This document shows positions 9,646-62,065 of a DNA stretch of 64,000 nt, piece after piece. Position numbers and translations under genes: made by a program. Source of the stretch: Liolophura sinensis (lineage: Eukaryota > Mollusca > Polyplacophora > Chitonida > Chitonidae). The stretch lies in assembly GCF_032854445.1 (NCBI RefSeq), contig NC_088295.1:75608028-75672027 (forward strand), given 5' to 3'. The first letter of the stretch is position 1, and every line of letters starts with the position of its first letter. The notes beneath the pieces were generated by a model. That model ran no database searches and was not told the DNA's origin. It was given only the letters and a program-made list of their open reading frames with translations.

Positions 9646-9987
9646 TTAGACCTGTGTTCTTGAGGTCCGTGGTATATAGTGAGCTTGACCTGTGTGCTTG
9701 AGGTCCGTGGTACATAGTGAGCTTGACCTGTATGCTTGAGGTCCGTGGTGTATAGTGAGCTTGACCTGTGTGCTTGAAGTCCGTGGTATATAGTGGGCTT
9801 GACCTGTGTGCTTGAGGTCCGTGGTATATAGTGAGCTTGACCTGTGTGCTTGAGGTCCGTGGTATATAGTGAGCTGGACCTGTGTGCTTGAAGTCCGTGG
9901 TATATAGTGGGCTTGACCTGTGTGCTTGAGGTCCGTGGTATATAGTGAGCTTGACTTGTGTGCTTGAGGTCCGTGGTATATAGTGAA
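9646..9987. repeat. 38-bp minisatellite, about 9 copies
   Basis: The unit CTTGACCTGTGTGCTTGAGG followed by TCCGTGGTATATAGTGAG (38 bp) repeats about nine times with a few substitutions per copy. 38 is not a multiple of three, so an open frame cycles through all three frames. This produces the two repetitive minus-strand frames of 121 and 124 residues, which are not genes. Confidence 0.95.
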
Positions 9988-12636: not shown

Positions 12637-14167
12637 AACTCTGTCAAAAAAGAAACGCAACCCCTGTCCTCGGATATCAAAAATTCGTTCGAATAAAGTT
12701 ATTGCTTCCAAACTAAATTTTAGCCAAATGTAATGAAATTATACACGTTTTTAATGAAGATTACCATCTAAACAACTGCTTTTTCTCTCCTAAGTGTATT
12801 TTATTGCTTATGACGTCACAACGCATGGACTGACCCTGTTGACGTCGCACACAGAACCATTCACATGCAAATCATGTCAATGGCAGTTATAGTGTGGGGG
12901 TGTATAAAAACCCATGTGCTTTCGTATTTTATTCAAATATTCGTCGACAAAAGGCAGTCGGTAAAATGCCGCGACTGAGTGCTGCCGACCGAAATATCGC
13001 CATTGGTCGTCTTCAAGCCGGAGAAAGTTTTGGTACTATTGCACGACACCTAAATGTTCACAAAACAACGATATCCCGACTTTGGAGCCGTTACAACAAC
13101 TTTAATTCGACCAACGATCGCCCGAGAAGTGGAAGGCCAAGAATCACGACCCCGCTTCAAGATCGGTACATCCGGGTCCTTCACCTGCGTAATCGGCATG
13201 CCCTACCAACCGTGACTGCCACACTAATACCAGGTTTGAGGAGAATGTCGGCTCAAACGATTAGGAACCGTTTGAAAGAAGCGGGTTTACGTGCCTGTAG
13301 ACCAGTTGTTGGACCTGTACTACGCCCCTTACATCCACGCCTACCACTCAGGTGGTGCAACAACGTAAGGATATGGACTTTACAAAACTGGAGGCGCATC
13401 TGGTTTTCTGATGAATCCCGTTTTCTTTTGACACGTCACGACGGAAGACAGCGTGTGTATGGGAGACGTCATGAACGCTTTGCGCCCATCTGCGTCCGGC
13501 AAGTGGACAGATTTGGCGGAGGCAGTGTTATGGTTTGGGGAGCCATCTCATACAACCAGAAATCAGACTTGGTGATCGTTCCAGGGAGCCCGACAGCCCA
13601 ACGTTACATCAACCACGTGTTACAGCCTCACCTTCTCCCGATTATTGACCGACAGACACAGCTTTTTCAACAGGACAACGCCAGGCGTCATACTGCACGT
13701 GCAACAATGAACTTTCTGCAGGATTCCAACGTCAATGTCTTGCCGTGGCCCTCTAAATCACCAGACCTCAACCCTATTGAACACCTGTGGGATACTCTGG
13801 ATCGACACGTGCGTCAACGTCAGCCACCGCCACAGACGCTTCAACAGCTCGCCGTTGCGTTACAGGAGGAGTGGAGGGCCATTCCCCAGGAGAGAATCCG
13901 GCGTCCTATCCGTTCTTGTCCAAGGAGATGCCGTGCAGTGATTACAGCTCGTGGTGGTCATACAAGATACTGAGGAAGACGCCCTCTTGTGAGCAACTGG
14001 TGTCTGTGAGATGACTTTTGAAAAGACAGTTTTAAACATGACTATCTTGATTATTATTCTGCCAAATTTCTGACTTCTGTCTTCAATAAGAAAAAAGTTG
14101 TGCCGTCCTAGAACTAAATATTAAAATCTCTAAAATACGGGGGTTGCGTTTCTTTTTTGACAGAGTT
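12637..14167 (+). mobile_element. Complete Tc1-like DNA transposon
   Basis: The ends are perfect 28-bp inverted repeats, AACTCTGTCAAAAAAGAAAC + GCAACCCC at 12637-12664 and its reverse complement at 14140-14167. They are flanked on both sides by TA (12635-12636, 14168-14169), the Tc1/mariner target-site duplication. The 1,531-bp body has one open transposase gene with no frameshift or stop. Perfect termini and an open gene suggest a recent insertion. The homogeneity and copy number elsewhere in the genome cannot be seen here. Confidence 0.95.
12966..13973 (+). CDS. Tc1-family transposase (DD34E), apparently intact
   Basis: A 335-residue DDE transposase that would bind the element's terminal repeats and catalyse cut-and-paste at TA sites in the nucleus. 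Residues 1-50 form the first helix-turn-helix (ending HKTTISRLW). A GRPR linker lies at 56-59, and a second DNA-binding helix region (TVTATLIP...SAQTIRNRLKEAGLRA) at about 80-110. The catalytic triad is visible: D149 in WFSDESRF, D237 in QQDNAR, E272 in LNPIEHLW, with 34 residues between the last two. The glycine-rich DRFGGGSVMVWG (181-192) and the C-terminal ARGGHTRY are typical of Tc1. The frame is open 24 codons further upstream, but I chose the ATG at 12966 because MPRLS begins the usual Tc1 N-terminus. Length matches the family (about 340). Activity cannot be judged from sequence. Confidence 0.93.
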   Translation: MPRLSAADRNIAIGRLQAGESFGTIARHLNVHKTTISRLWSRYNNFNSTNDRPRSGRPRITTPLQDRYIRVLHLRNRHALPTVTATLIPGLRRMSAQTIRNRLKEAGLRACRPVVGPVLRPLHPRLPLRWCNNVRIWTLQNWRRIWFSDESRFLLTRHDGRQRVYGRRHERFAPICVRQVDRFGGGSVMVWGAISYNQKSDLVIVPGSPTAQRYINHVLQPHLLPIIDRQTQLFQQDNARRHTARATMNFLQDSNVNVLPWPSKSPDLNPIEHLWDTLDRHVRQRQPPPQTLQQLAVALQEEWRAIPQERIRRPIRSCPRRCRAVITARGGHTRY

Positions 14168-29430: not shown

Positions 29431-30545
29431 AAGTTGGTATAACAGCAATGGGCGGACGGTTGGAACTGGTTTTGATATAATACCAATGGGAGAACAGATG
29501 GAATTTGTTTTGGTATAACAACATTAGGAGAACGGCTTTAACTGATTTTGGTAGAACATTATTGGGGGAACGGCTTTAACTGGTTTGGTATAACACCATT
29601 GGGAGAACGGCTTTAACTGGTTTTGGTATAACACCATTGGGAGAACGGCTTTAACTGATTTTGGTAGAACACCATTGGGAGAAAGGCTTTAATTGATTTT
29701 GGTAGAACATCATTGGGAGAACGGCTGTAACTGGTTTGGGTATAACACGATTGGGAGAACGGCTTTAACTGGTTTTGTTATAACGCTATTGGGAGAACGG
29801 CTGTAACGTGTTTTGGTATAACACGATTGGGAGAACACCTTTAACTGATTTTGGTATAACACCATTGGGAGAACGGCTTTAAATGATTTTGGTGTAGCAT
29901 CATTGGGAGAACGGCTTTAACTGGTTTTGGTATAACACGATTGGGAGAACGGCTTTAACTGGTTTTGGTATAACACCATTGGGAGAACGACTTTAACTGG
30001 TTTTGGCTTAACACAAATGGGGGAGCGACTGGAACTGGCTTTGGTATACCACTAATGGGAGAAGGAAGAAAATTTGTTTTGAAATAACACAAATGTGAAA
30101 CGACTGGAACTGGCTTTGGTATACAACCAATGGAAGAACGAATGGAAACAGTTTTGGCATAACACAGATGGGAAACGACTGGAACTGGCTTTGGTATACA
30201 ACCAATGGAAGAACGAATGGAACCAGTTTTGGCATAACACTAATGCGAGGACAGCTGGAACAGGTTTGGGTATAACACCAACCGGAGAACGACTTAAACT
30301 GGTATTTGGTATAACACCAATAGAAGAACAACTTGAGCTGGTTTTGGTATAACACCAATAGGAGAACACCAACGCTTAGAACGATTGAGACTGGTTTTTG
30401 GTACAACTTCAATGGGAGAACGGCTGAAACTGGTTTTGGTATAACACTGATGCACAACGGCTGGAACTGGTTTTGGTATAACACTGATGCACAACGGCTG
30501 GAACTGGTTTTGGTATCACACTGATGCACAACGGCTGGAACTGCG
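29430..30545. repeat. Large 38-bp minisatellite with 76-bp higher-order units
   Basis: About 29 units of TTGGTATAACACCATTGGGA + GAACGGCTTTAACTGGTT (38 bp). The first 600 bp is fairly uniform. At about 30030-30260 units alternate as pairs (GGGAAACGACTGGAACTGGC-type then GGAAGAACGAATGGAA-type), a 76-bp higher-order unit. From about 30420 a third subtype (ACTGATGCACAACGGCTGGA) is repeated. The 173- and 106-residue minus-strand repetitive frames derive from this array. Confidence 0.95.
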
Positions 30546-39449: not shown

Positions 39450-39870
39450 TGTGAGGTGCAATCGTGTGGTGACACCTTCAGTTATGATGTAGTGATGTGA
39501 TTTGTATATGATGGTCACTTGTCGGCATGTGATAGTGCAGTTATGTGGTGGTCAGATGCAGTGGTACAGTCATTAGATGCTGTCGCACGGTGGTTAGGCG
39601 TAACTTAATGGTGGTGATGTTCAATAATGTGGTTATGATGGTGAGGCGCGATTGTGTTAGCGACATGTAGTTGTGTTGGTGAGGTTCAGTTATGATGGTG
39701 AGACACGATTGTGTTAGCGATATGTAGTTGCGGTGGTGAGGTTCAGTTATGACAGTGAGGTGCGATCGTGGTTGTGACATTTTGTTTGTGTTATGGTGAA
39801 GTTCAGTTATGGTGGTTATGCGCGATTGTGGATGCGACATGTAGTTGTGGTGGTGAGGTGCAATCATAAA
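39450..39870. repeat. G/T-rich degenerate tandem repeat, part 2
   Basis: Repeated GGTGAGGTTCAGTTATGATG and CGATTGTGTTAGCGACATGT blocks with strong G/T bias on the plus strand. The 136-residue minus-strand frame (repeated Thr-Ile-Ile-Thr, Pro-His-His) is an artefact of this tract. Confidence 0.85.
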
Positions 39871-40716
39871 TAGATCTGTACGCATTCGTAAGGTATATTC
39901 AAGAGAATACACCAGATTCAGAAAATCACCCAGTAGGCATAGTTTTATCATTTCTGTCTAATGGTGTCGAAGGAGATTCGCTATTATCAGAAAGTCCCTT
40001 CTTCTCCACATATTCACATATCCGAGTTGAGATGAATTGATTACAACCTGCATATTGTGGCGATATGTTTATTGTGTCAAACAATGGTTCCTGTTATTTT
40101 GTCTCCAAATATGTACGAAAAACATTGGTATTACATCACTTTGAACCCAGAAATCGAATACACAAACACATATATAGAAATACATCAGACGATTTGCATG
40201 GTGTTCAATTTATTTGAAAGTGTTTGAATTTGGATCTCAACTCATTTCAATGATGAGGATTTTTGGTGTCGTCGAAATCGCCCTGTGTACTCTGAAAAGT
40301 TGATTTAGCCAAAGAAAAGAGGTACATGAATTAGTAAATTATGCTGGAACGTCACTTTGACTTTTAATAACTTTGATGGAATCGGGCCTGTGAGATAACG
40401 CTTGGGATATCTCATATTTCACCTATTATGGACCAAGACTGCACTGTTAGATTATTTGCCCAAAACATCATCATACCTGCAAATCACAGTTTGTTTTTTC
40501 ATTGTCCAAGGATGTCAACGTTTCGTTCATGAAGCGAGAAATCCAAAATGTCGTCGCTGGACGTAGTTATTGCGATATGGTAACCACGATCCTTTATGAT
40601 AAACAAATAACACGCCAAAATATGCATAAAATAAATCTACATCTTTACTGGCGTAAAGAGCAACACAAGTGTTACAGAGACTGTGTTAAAGTCTAGCTGT
40701 GGCATGGGCCACAGTC

Positions 40717-40994
40717 TCACCGAGAAGGTCTGGCCTCCGACCCGCCCGCTTTTCGTAACTCCGAATGACTCTTTAATATTTCCAGCAAGTGTAATATATC
40801 TCGTCTGAGACTTTGATTTTTACCAGAGTCTTGTTTGTTCGGCATGCCACCGGATCTCTTCCCCAGCGTGTAGTACACACAACATGCGCATCTTGGATGG
40901 CTTCCGGCTTGATACTTCATGCAATCTTTGATAAAGCAATCACAGCGATGCCCGTCCGCTTCCCGAGTAGCAATGGTAAGAAACAGGAGGATAC
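40717..40994 (-). CDS. Trissin-like amidated cysteine-rich neuropeptide precursor (last exon)
   Basis: Minus-strand terminal exon, entered in phase 1 after an acceptor (TTGTTTGTGTATTTCCAG) and ending at TGA. It encodes 91 residues plus two bases of a split codon. Residues 1-8 (ILLFLTIA) look like the hydrophobic core of a signal peptide ending near TREA. The following segment holds six cysteines: RCDCFIKDC, a 10-residue spacer with SHPR, then CACC, and ends VYYTL-Gly-Lys-Arg, so it would be cleaved and C-terminally amidated. A cysteine-free spacer follows, containing LRRDILHLLEILKSHSELRK. The spacing (C-D-x-C.., K-acidic-C, H-x-R, then CC-x-x-Y-L) resembles trissin, a disulfide-rich arthropod neuropeptide; an orexin-A-like or other disulfide-rich secreted peptide is possible. 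The initiating exon was not found within several kb upstream. The trissin assignment is inference; the Cys/GKR organisation is visible. Confidence 0.65.
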
Positions 40995-40999
40995 CTGGA

Positions 41000-42570
41000 A
41001 ATACACAAACAACACAGACATCAGCTTTTCTGTGTAAATCATGGTGCTCGGAGGTATGTGTAAGTCACTACTTTTAAGCATTCACTAGAAAAAAACTCGC
41101 AATTAGGTAAATTTACAAGGGGCTTAATTTCAGGAGCTATAGGTGATTATTTGGAAACTGCATGTGCCATTTTTGCTGTTCTTGTTTTACACTTCATGCT
41201 GAAGCCGTTTTTACTGATCGATATAGCAATTACAATCTAAATCCCTTCTTGTGAGGGGAACTAAGAAATGGTAACTTACATGTATCATAAATATTTTTAT
41301 TACACACCTAACTGTCCATCGCCAATATTATCTAGTAAATGATAACTGTTCAATATGAGATCATACTGGACACTTGCAACGTCATGAAGTGACCTCACCC
41401 ACCGAACGGCTTACTCTCTGTGACGTTATGACGTTACAATTGCTTTCAACGAGAAATGAATAAAAAGTAACGCTGCCTGACTTCGGGCATCAAAAATAAA
41501 GAATTTACAACCTTTGCTCGAGAGCTGACCGTTTTAAATTTATTTGCAATTCCAAGTTTTGAGCGGGTGTATAATGAATAGCTTATTGGCTTGAATGGCA
41601 TCGTCCTGCCGCTCGGACTACAGGCGCCAGTGACCAACTCCACAAAGACATTTCTGACTTAAGTCAAAACTGAAAACTTTCTCAGAATTCTTGGGTTATT
41701 GGTTATGGAAGTTGAATTTTAGACACATTTGCCTGGAAGACTGAGGAAGTGGTAAAAATTGACTTTACAGGGCTCAAAAATATGTTCTATTTTAAATTTT
41801 GACTAAAGAAAAAAATGGCTTTGTGTAATTGGTCCCAGGCCTCGTCCACGCAGAGAGATACTAGTCAATAGCCTGCACCAACAACACCTATGAACAATGA
41901 TAAAATATCATTGGTATGTACTCAACTAATATAGTAATAAATAATAAAAACTTTTTCCTTGTGATATTGACATCATTTTTGATTCTACGGTAATATGTTA
42001 GAATCACAGAATGTTGGGAAGTAGAGTGAGGTTTCATTTATTCAATAAACCTGTGTCTGCTCATATACCATAGACTTTAAAGATGGTCCTTGTTGCTGCC
42101 TCGCTTGGCGTGTGTGTAAAGACACACTATACAGGTATTTACACACGTTTAATGATTCCTCGTCGTCATGTACATGAATTTCAACACGGGAGTACAAACC
42201 AGTATACGTCGAACTGTTCCGCGGTTGCGAGTTTCACTTCTTCGGTCATGAAAGTACCATATACCATTTTATGAAATTCATTTAGTATTTAGTAAGATCA
42301 CACCAAGCGTGGCAAAGTCACAACTCAAATAGACCACAAAGTTACCGCTCAAATAGAAATGCCATTAAGACAGGCGGGAGTCAGGCGTACCCTTTATTCT
42401 GGTATTACGGTATGCCATAACATATTATAACATAACATATCATAACTCCCATCTATGCGTTGAAACAGACATTCGTATAGCAGCCGTTAACCAAAATAGA
42501 CGTTCGAGGTCAATAATCCCACGACCAATTCCCCAACGACGTTTATCACAAACTAGAGAACTAAGAAAGT
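41000..42570. other. Putative upstream intron or flank of the peptide gene
   Basis: Expected to hold the missing signal-peptide exon on the minus strand. I checked ATG-plus-donor combinations here and found none that gives a hydrophobic leader in phase 1. A minus-strand donor GTAAGT occurs at about 41280-41275 but is preceded only by stop-containing sequence. Confidence 0.3.
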
Positions 42571-60400: not shown

Positions 60401-61189
60401 TTGAGGTTTGTAAACTTGATCATCACCCATTCGGGGCAGTCTTGTATTTCACAACATGCATCAGGGGTAAGATCATTGAAACCTTATAGCTCCATGTCTA
60501 TTTGCTTCAGTTTGGAGCTTATTCCATAAACTGGCTATGCACATGCTTACAAAGTAGCAACTTTTACTTTCCTAGCACCATGGCTTAAGCAGATATTGGT
60601 GAAAAATGCAGTGGTGTGAATAGCAATATATCTGACAATACTGCTCAAGAATTACTCAAAAGCTTTGTTGTCATCACATTTAATAAAGAATCACATCAAC
60701 TCAATGGAAATGGACCTGGCCTCCTGGATGCCTAATGAATCATCCCGTTTATGCGGTAATACATTAAAGATCTCCAACGAATGACCCATTAGCATCAAGT
60801 TTATTAAGTGAGACGAGAGTGAAACAATTTCGTTTGTTGTAGCCTCCAACGAGAAACAAACGAAAGTTTGGACCAGAGTATAATAAAGTGATACGACTGG
60901 GTGAAATCAGCCAGATAATTTTGTCTTGTTTCTCTTTATTTAGAAGGGCACGTGTAGATGTGGGGGTGTAATTTAAGTAAAGATGTGACGTTAGTCATTC
61001 GTCATCAGATGCAACAAAACTCTTAGGATGTGCAGGATAAAATATACACCACCCTAAACAATTCAACCGTGCCCAGATTTTTGACATTATTAATGACATA
61101 ATTAAAACTGAGTAGAGGATAATTTACGAACAGTTTACGAACATGTTTCCCAGACACAGAGGAATAAATATATACAATGTATGCCATAG

Positions 61190-61458
61190 ATAATCTACAT
61201 TTAAAGTGTATGCCGTAGTTACACAACATTTAAACTGTATGCCGTAGTCACGCCGGGCTTAAACAGTATACCTTAGTTACACAACATTTAAACTGTATGC
61301 CATAGTTACTCCAGGCTGAAAGGGTATACCTTCGTTACACAACATTTAAACTGTATGCCATAGTTACTCCAGGCTGAAAGGGTATACCTTCGTTACACAA
61401 CATTTAAACTGTATGCCATAGTTCCGCCAAGCTTAAACGGTATACCTTCGTTACACAA
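61190..61458. repeat. 58-bp minisatellite, about 4.5 copies
   Basis: The unit CGTTACACAACATTTAAACT + GTATGCCATAGTTACTCCAG + GCTGAAAGGGTATACCTT recurs with subtypes. The central units are almost identical and the outer ones diverged. Confidence 0.93.
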
Positions 61459-62065
61459 CATGAAACGTGAGCAAAAGAGTGGAAAACAAAGAAATGTCTA
61501 CTCTGTTGTGTTTGGAAAAGCATAAACGTGAATGAAATCATTCCTTTTCCGTCATCACGTATGTTTCGTATAAATATGTAAATAATATAAAAATTAACAT
61601 GAAATGTGGAGGCAGCATATATTTCATGAGGTGGCCCTAGTTTTAAAAGCGGGATCTCGAACCATTGTTACATCAAAAATCGATAGCAGACCAACGTCTA
61701 CAATATTTATGATGTATAAGTTTTTACTGTAACGTTGTGCTGTCTTCAATATGACCTCATTATGATGCAATGGAAAAGGGACGTTTGATGTTAATCATAT
61801 AGCGTCAGGCTTTTGCTGCTGGCCCTTAGCTGAATATCCATTAATGATTTGCCTAGATTTTTACATTTGAAACATATGGGCATGCCTGCAAAAAATAGTC
61901 CCTGGCATCCTTTGCCAGTCTTTGCCTTAAACTATGATTTATATAACAATTATACTTAATATATCCATGTCACTCCAAACCGAGTCAGAACATCTTCACA
62001 CAGGAAGTACTTTGATGATGCCTCGATGGTGTGATTTATGTTGCCAAACATTTGGGTTATTTGCT

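Follow-up and report, generated by a model that had tools for sequence, protein, structure and literature searches.

A candidate gene for an amidated six-cysteine peptide in the chiton Liolophura sinensis, compared with trissin and CLCCY

Introduction

Peptide hormones are generally made by a common route, in which signal peptidase removes the leader of a precursor, disulfides form, a prohormone convertase cleaves the chain, the exposed end is trimmed, a terminal glycine is converted to an amide, and the product undergoes regulated release to act on a G-protein-coupled receptor (GPCR). Trissin is a compact example with six cysteines. In the part of the polyneopteran description available to us (PMC7179676), its consensus reads LSCDSCGRECxxxCGTRNFRTCCFNYL, the C-terminus ahead of RKR being free; the cleavage site is usually RKR, with KKR or KR in a few cases, and the precursors are 88-117 aa long. 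Relatives of the trissin receptor are reported in molluscs, and the lophotrochozoan orthologues are listed among the orphan receptors, in the accessible portion of PMC8557429. No chiton or molluscan trissin peptide was among the matches listed in an open-licence literature library.

CLCCY is a lophotrochozoan proneuropeptide family that excerpts of four papers place in annelids, molluscs and other phyla (PMC3890597, PMC6425005, PMC8398477, PMC8557429), with Platynereis, oyster, brachiopods and phoronids as named taxa, and its expression has been mapped in Platynereis larvae, according to an extract of PMC5747525. Molluscs also have other small, cysteine-rich, secreted precursors, including CCCGS, clionin and GSWN; CCCGS has eight cysteines in 42 residues and, in the text seen, no relatives outside C. 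gigas (PMC8398477).

Here, we describe a locus in a chiton genome that invites comparison with these systems. The window, meaning the whole stretch of 64 kb that was analysed, is positions 75608028-75672027 of contig C1, in a genome of 609,464,459 bases in 632 contigs. The animal of the published assembly, Liolophura japonica, was renamed L. sinensis by correction (PMC12441733); the RNA tissues given in the part of its description consulted were digestive gland, foot, gill, gonad and heart, with nerve absent (PMC11068029). The original prediction, which was made from the letters alone, had placed the DNA in a mollusc, and was right to do so, since the assembly is that of a chiton.

Results

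A terminal exon with the layout of a peptide precursor

The prediction identified a short minus-strand exon at 40717-40994 that combined a hydrophobic leader, a compact region of six cysteines, an amidation glycine with a dibasic Lys-Arg, and a cysteine-free spacer. The exon holds exactly, beginning after a TTTCCAG acceptor and remaining open to a TGA, and each of the parts can be read in its translation, which is ILLFLTIATREADG-HRCDCFIKDCMKYQAGSHPRCACCVYYTL-G-KR, followed by a cysteine-free tail of 45 residues and the stop. The leader contains the core ILLFLTIA, the six cysteines are packed into 22 residues with the spacing C-x-C-x4-C-x10-C-x-C-C (gaps 1-4-10-1-0), and the tail that forms the spacer also contains an Arg-Arg. 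Hence the claim that the frame has the grammar of a peptide precursor is supported by both reading frame and motifs. The features, in window coordinates, are as follows.

40995..41020, minus strand: splice acceptor, a T-rich tract ending TTTCCAG|GT, phase-1 intron (inferred from consensus)
40717..40994, minus strand: terminal coding exon, 278 nt, comprising 2 nt of a split codon, 91 codons and the stop TGA
40951..40992, minus strand: second half of the predicted signal peptide, the ILLFLTIA core plus TREADG (translation)
40864..40950, minus strand: predicted mature peptide HRCDCFIKDCMKYQAGSHPRCACCVYYTL, 29 aa with six cysteines (translation)
40861..40863, minus strand: glycine, predicted amide donor (inferred from the GKR motif)
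40855..40860, minus strand: Lys-Arg, predicted convertase site (translation)
40720..40854, minus strand: cysteine-free C-terminal tail, 45 residues, SGGMPNKQ...EARPSR (translation)
40801..40806, minus strand: Arg-Arg within the tail, possible second convertase site (translation)
40209..40214, minus strand: AATAAA, possible poly(A) signal 503 nt past the stop (weak)

The sequence directly upstream of the exon, on its acceptor side, is TGTGTTGTTTGTGTATTTCCAG, and a further AATAAA lies 644 nt past the stop. From stop to stop, the minus-strand frame spans 40717..41064 (115 open codons) and, although it stays open to 41064, has no in-frame ATG upstream of the cysteines. Therefore the start is expected in an earlier, upstream exon. 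Cleavage by signal peptidase is predicted after A-D-G by the -3/-1 rule, judged by eye, and a dibasic motif with an amidation glycine stands directly behind the peptide, as expected of a neuropeptide precursor, this being a statement about the GKR motif and not about its use. With an amide and three disulfides, HRCDCFIKDCMKYQAGSHPRCACCVYYTL has a computed monoisotopic MH+ of 3407.43.

At the DNA level the exon has a single match across the genome, and therefore is not a recognisable repeat; scans of the window against Rfam and for tRNAs returned nothing. The candidate had no match in Pfam or among PDB sequences, and no relative among the contigs searched, which were those of prokaryotes and viruses, so the last of these results says little. 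AlphaFold2 modelled the 30-aa peptide alone at pLDDT 63 and pTM 0.23, and Foldseek found no PDB match to this model at E up to 10.

A candidate first exon 26 kb upstream

The 43 kb upstream of the terminal exon (the remainder of the window and 20 kb beyond it) were searched for exons with an ATG, an in-phase donor, and residues extending the hydrophobic core. Loose candidates were no more abundant than expected: eight were seen, triplet-block shuffles gave 7.4, and the opposite strand had 11. For a donor score of at least 6, the corresponding counts were two, 1.7 and four. The best was AAGG-ATG ACG ACC TCT AAA ATT TGC ATA G|GTGAGTA (L028:3126-3102, minus strand), which lies 3.1 kb outside the window and 26 kb upstream of the terminal exon, and encodes MTTSKICI-G. 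It is in phase, has an A at -3 of its ATG, occurs once in the genome, and its donor, ATAG|GTGAGT, has the top score, 10.5 on a generic matrix. A candidate with a donor score of at least 10, a threshold set post hoc, was present in 38 of 600 triplet-block shuffles (approximately 6%), and none was present on the opposite strand.

When joined to this exon, the precursor would be 100 residues long and begin MTTSKICIGILLFLTIATREADG|HRCDC..., with complete n-, h- and c-regions in the predicted signal peptide and A-x-G before the cut, a normal-looking arrangement by eye. The predicted junction would connect 75,675,129 to 75,649,021 of contig C1, on the minus strand, and the implied intron, of 26,107 bp, is long. 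We regard this as the likely exon 1, as judged from its phase, donor and fit to the signal peptide.

The proposed gene and its product

Taken together, these features probably mark a chiton gene that encodes a short prepropeptide, with HRCDCFIKDCMKYQAGSHPRCACCVYYTL-amide as its predicted product, and the locus is a probable neuropeptide precursor, ordinary in kind and of uncertain family. Exon 1 would be spliced to the terminal exon across the long intron, and the signal peptide would be removed from the encoded precursor after ADG. Three disulfides would then form among the six cysteines, a prohormone convertase would cleave at Lys-Arg, and, once the basic residues were trimmed, the glycine would be converted to the amide; the Arg-Arg in the tail may liberate a second fragment. 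The amidated peptide would be secreted by neurons or endocrine cells through regulated release, and would act on a GPCR; the chiton genome gave 150 matches to 7tm_1.

How readily chance produces such a frame

The contention that so structured a frame was unlikely to be noise was addressed with 4000 dinucleotide shuffles of the window, from which low-complexity frames were dropped, using criteria chosen after seeing the candidate. A loose pattern, in which six cysteines within 30 residues are followed by G[KR][KR] no more than 10 residues on, in an open frame of at least 60, occurred 31 times. Adding a hydrophobic core (an eight-residue mean Kyte-Doolittle of at least 2.5 within 30 residues upstream) reduced this to two, and adding a cysteine-free tail of at least 20 residues reduced it to none, whereas the window contains one match, the candidate. 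By arithmetic, two occurrences of pattern and core per 4000 windows correspond to about five chance matches in the 609-Mb genome. An earlier set of 300 shuffles, made without the complexity filter, gave four matches versus three in the window, two of these being CVCVCV repeats.

Frame statistics derived from 13,233 codons in 30 open frames of GPCRs gave a contrast of 8.5 bits in favour of the candidate's right frame. Among 131 true GPCR coding segments the 10th percentile is 9.2, so that this value falls just beneath it, and 6.9% of 1500 random stretches of 273 nt score as high or higher. Of the 46 frames in the window that are open for 90 codons or more, no fewer than 12 have scores of at least 20.9. 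Codon and frame statistics are a weak test here, and fail to separate the candidate from other open frames. The claim of improbability draws its support from the full grammar, seen in 0 of 4000 shuffles; codon usage does not discriminate.

A possible paralogue

Within its own genome, the candidate has one further protein match, at E 0.93, on contig C9 (C9:19156942-19157052, minus strand; L002:1501-1611, minus strand), in a 93-codon open frame that contains CFLDLSGGPERCMCCVVYAFKKFTGGLGDDDDKEKGD and whose translation reads CFLDLSGGPERCMCCVVYAFKKFTGG... The two are 35% identical over 37 ungapped residues, and have in common, at the same spacing, the C-x10-C-x-CC of the last four cysteines, V-x-Y, a basic pair and GG. 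The C9 motif is C-M-C-C-V-V-Y followed by Lys-Lys, with no glycine ahead of the lysines, and this exon is without the first pair of cysteines; the first cysteine of its frame borders a local repeat with a spacing of approximately 115 nt. The locus has one DNA match in the genome, and its frame has no match in Pfam.

A reverse search with a 63-residue query from C9 returned the candidate as its best non-self match, at E 0.29, followed by an unrelated third locus at E 0.86; E-values of 0.3-0.9 are at the level of chance. In open frames of at least 60, C-x10-C-x-CC arose eight times in 400 shuffles (25.6 Mb), and with a basic pair two to seven residues behind it not at all, a result that still allows tens in 609 Mb. 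The C9 locus is a possible paralogue of the candidate, and a lead to a small family, which leaves the odds for a gene unchanged.

Discussion

The resemblance to trissin, which the prediction had emphasised, is one of layout and size. On the portion of the trissin description consulted, both are single six-cysteine peptides of 27-29 residues beside a basic cleavage site, with a terminal CC and an aromatic tail of four to five residues ending in Leu, and with the first and third cysteines at positions 3 and 10; the chiton precursor would be 100 aa long with the candidate exon 1, inside the 88-117 aa range of trissins. Trissin directly follows its signal peptide, and the predicted chiton cut, ADG|HRC, would leave two residues before the first cysteine. 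The cysteine gaps differ, at 1-4-10-1-0 in the chiton versus 2-3-3-7-0 in the same partial source (C-x2-C-x3-C-x3-C-x7-C-C), displacing the second and fourth cysteines. The chiton peptide also has the amidation glycine of GKR where the published trissin C-terminus is free, in the excerpt available, which is the departure from the arthropod form that had been anticipated. Global alignment to the polyneopteran consensus scored 25.5, a value equalled by 107 of 2000 full shuffles (approximately 5%), by 126 of 2000 when the cysteines were kept in place, and by 597 of 2000 when the CC tail was. Hence the CC tail accounts for most of the likeness, and, given the cysteine spacing, the amide and the marginal alignment, membership of the trissin family is not supported. 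The candidate may nevertheless act in the manner of trissin, as a small disulfide-bonded ligand of a GPCR.

The candidate would sit at least as well in CLCCY, a family that the prediction had not named. The name suggests C-L-C-C-Y, to be set beside C-A-C-C-V-Y-Y in the chiton peptide and C-M-C-C-V-V-Y at C9, and the literal CLCCY string is missing from the former (CACCVYY). On this comparison, made by name only, the CLCCY type is the most likely family for the candidate if the gene is real, at somewhat below an even chance. Failing that, it would be either a trissin-type ligand that has diverged strongly or a member of a cysteine-rich family yet to be described. A genome-wide count of a CxCCYY DNA pattern was uninformative (191 matches versus 251 for the reversed control). 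In phoronids, CLCCY is reported and trissin-related receptors are not, according to the part of PMC8557429 available, a contrast resting on transcriptome absence, and this is a weak argument that CLCCY is not the ligand of the trissin receptor. Were the locus to be a chiton CLCCY, it would contribute one genomic locus to an established family, and no receptor of that family is named in the portions of literature examined.

That the frame is an accident of intergenic DNA, with a coincidental look of a peptide hormone and nothing made from it, is unlikely, but has points in its favour: codon and frame statistics leave the candidate among other open frames, relatives amount to the one borderline C9 locus, the evidence for exon 1 arises in about 6% of shuffles, and around five frames with the pattern and hydrophobic core are expected genome-wide. 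It would nonetheless require chance to supply the full grammar absent from all 4000 shuffles, and to line up acceptor, split signal peptide, plausible cut site, Gly-Lys-Arg and tail in their proper sequence and in phase. It is also quite unlikely that the six cysteines belong to a different sort of secreted product, an antimicrobial or epithelial peptide, and not to a neuropeptide. The same caution was voiced for the oyster CCCGS peptides, in the passages seen of PMC8398477, whose eight cysteines in 42 residues compare with six in 29 aa here, but a Gly-Lys-Arg followed by a long cysteine-free tail is the layout of a prohormone, and no defensin or toxin family was matched in Pfam or among PDB sequences.

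The remaining rival, that this is a true trissin-type ligand of the trissin-receptor-related GPCRs of molluscs, with diverged cysteine spacing and a newly acquired amide, we consider very unlikely. The shared cysteine positions, the CC and aromatic tail, and the place after the signal peptide would accord with it, as would the molluscan receptor relatives and their orphan lophotrochozoan orthologues, so far as the partial sources go (PMC8557429). Against it are the misplaced second and fourth cysteines, the amidation glycine, the ease with which shuffles reproduce the alignment score, and the failure of a trissin query to match the chiton genome, in a search that had no positive control. The broader proposal, that this peptide is the missing lophotrochozoan ligand of the trissin-receptor family, of trissin type but amidated and with its disulfide frame rearranged, is a long shot. 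If true, the trissin system would be common to protostomes, its lophotrochozoan peptide having been overlooked because the cysteines moved.

The preferred reading remains that of a probable neuropeptide precursor of uncertain family. As molluscs have trissin-receptor relatives that count as orphans in the text available (PMC8557429), the peptide is a cheap, testable candidate: a synthesizable 29-residue chiton amide would permit a direct ligand test of the orphan lophotrochozoan orthologues. The locus also suggests that bare genome sequence is enough to reveal a short peptide gene split between exons.

Other features of the window and genome

Elsewhere in the window, a minus-strand frame at 16732-17052 matches Arf GTPases in Pfam (E 1.7e-21, over profile positions 25-82); it starts inside the P-loop (SGKTT), and is either an exon or a decayed copy of an Arf/Arl gene. 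A plus-strand open frame of 376 codons at 12843-13973, with HTH and DDE_3 domains, is a transposase frame, presumably Tc1/mariner-like. Tandem arrays with units of 29-117 bp are found at 29434-30543, 9649-9986, 1517-1805, 39632-39859 and 61178-61461, and several of these translate as long repetitive open frames. An apparent tandem array at C6:71196360-71197863 contains fourteen identical matches to TGTGAATGTTGCTATTAC in 1.5 kb. The mitochondrial contig, C632 (15,209 bp), has a gene order that we take to be the ancestral, chiton-like molluscan one, and seven copies of cox1 in steps of approximately 15.5 kb on contig C99 form a head-to-tail mitochondrial concatemer that is probably an assembly artefact.
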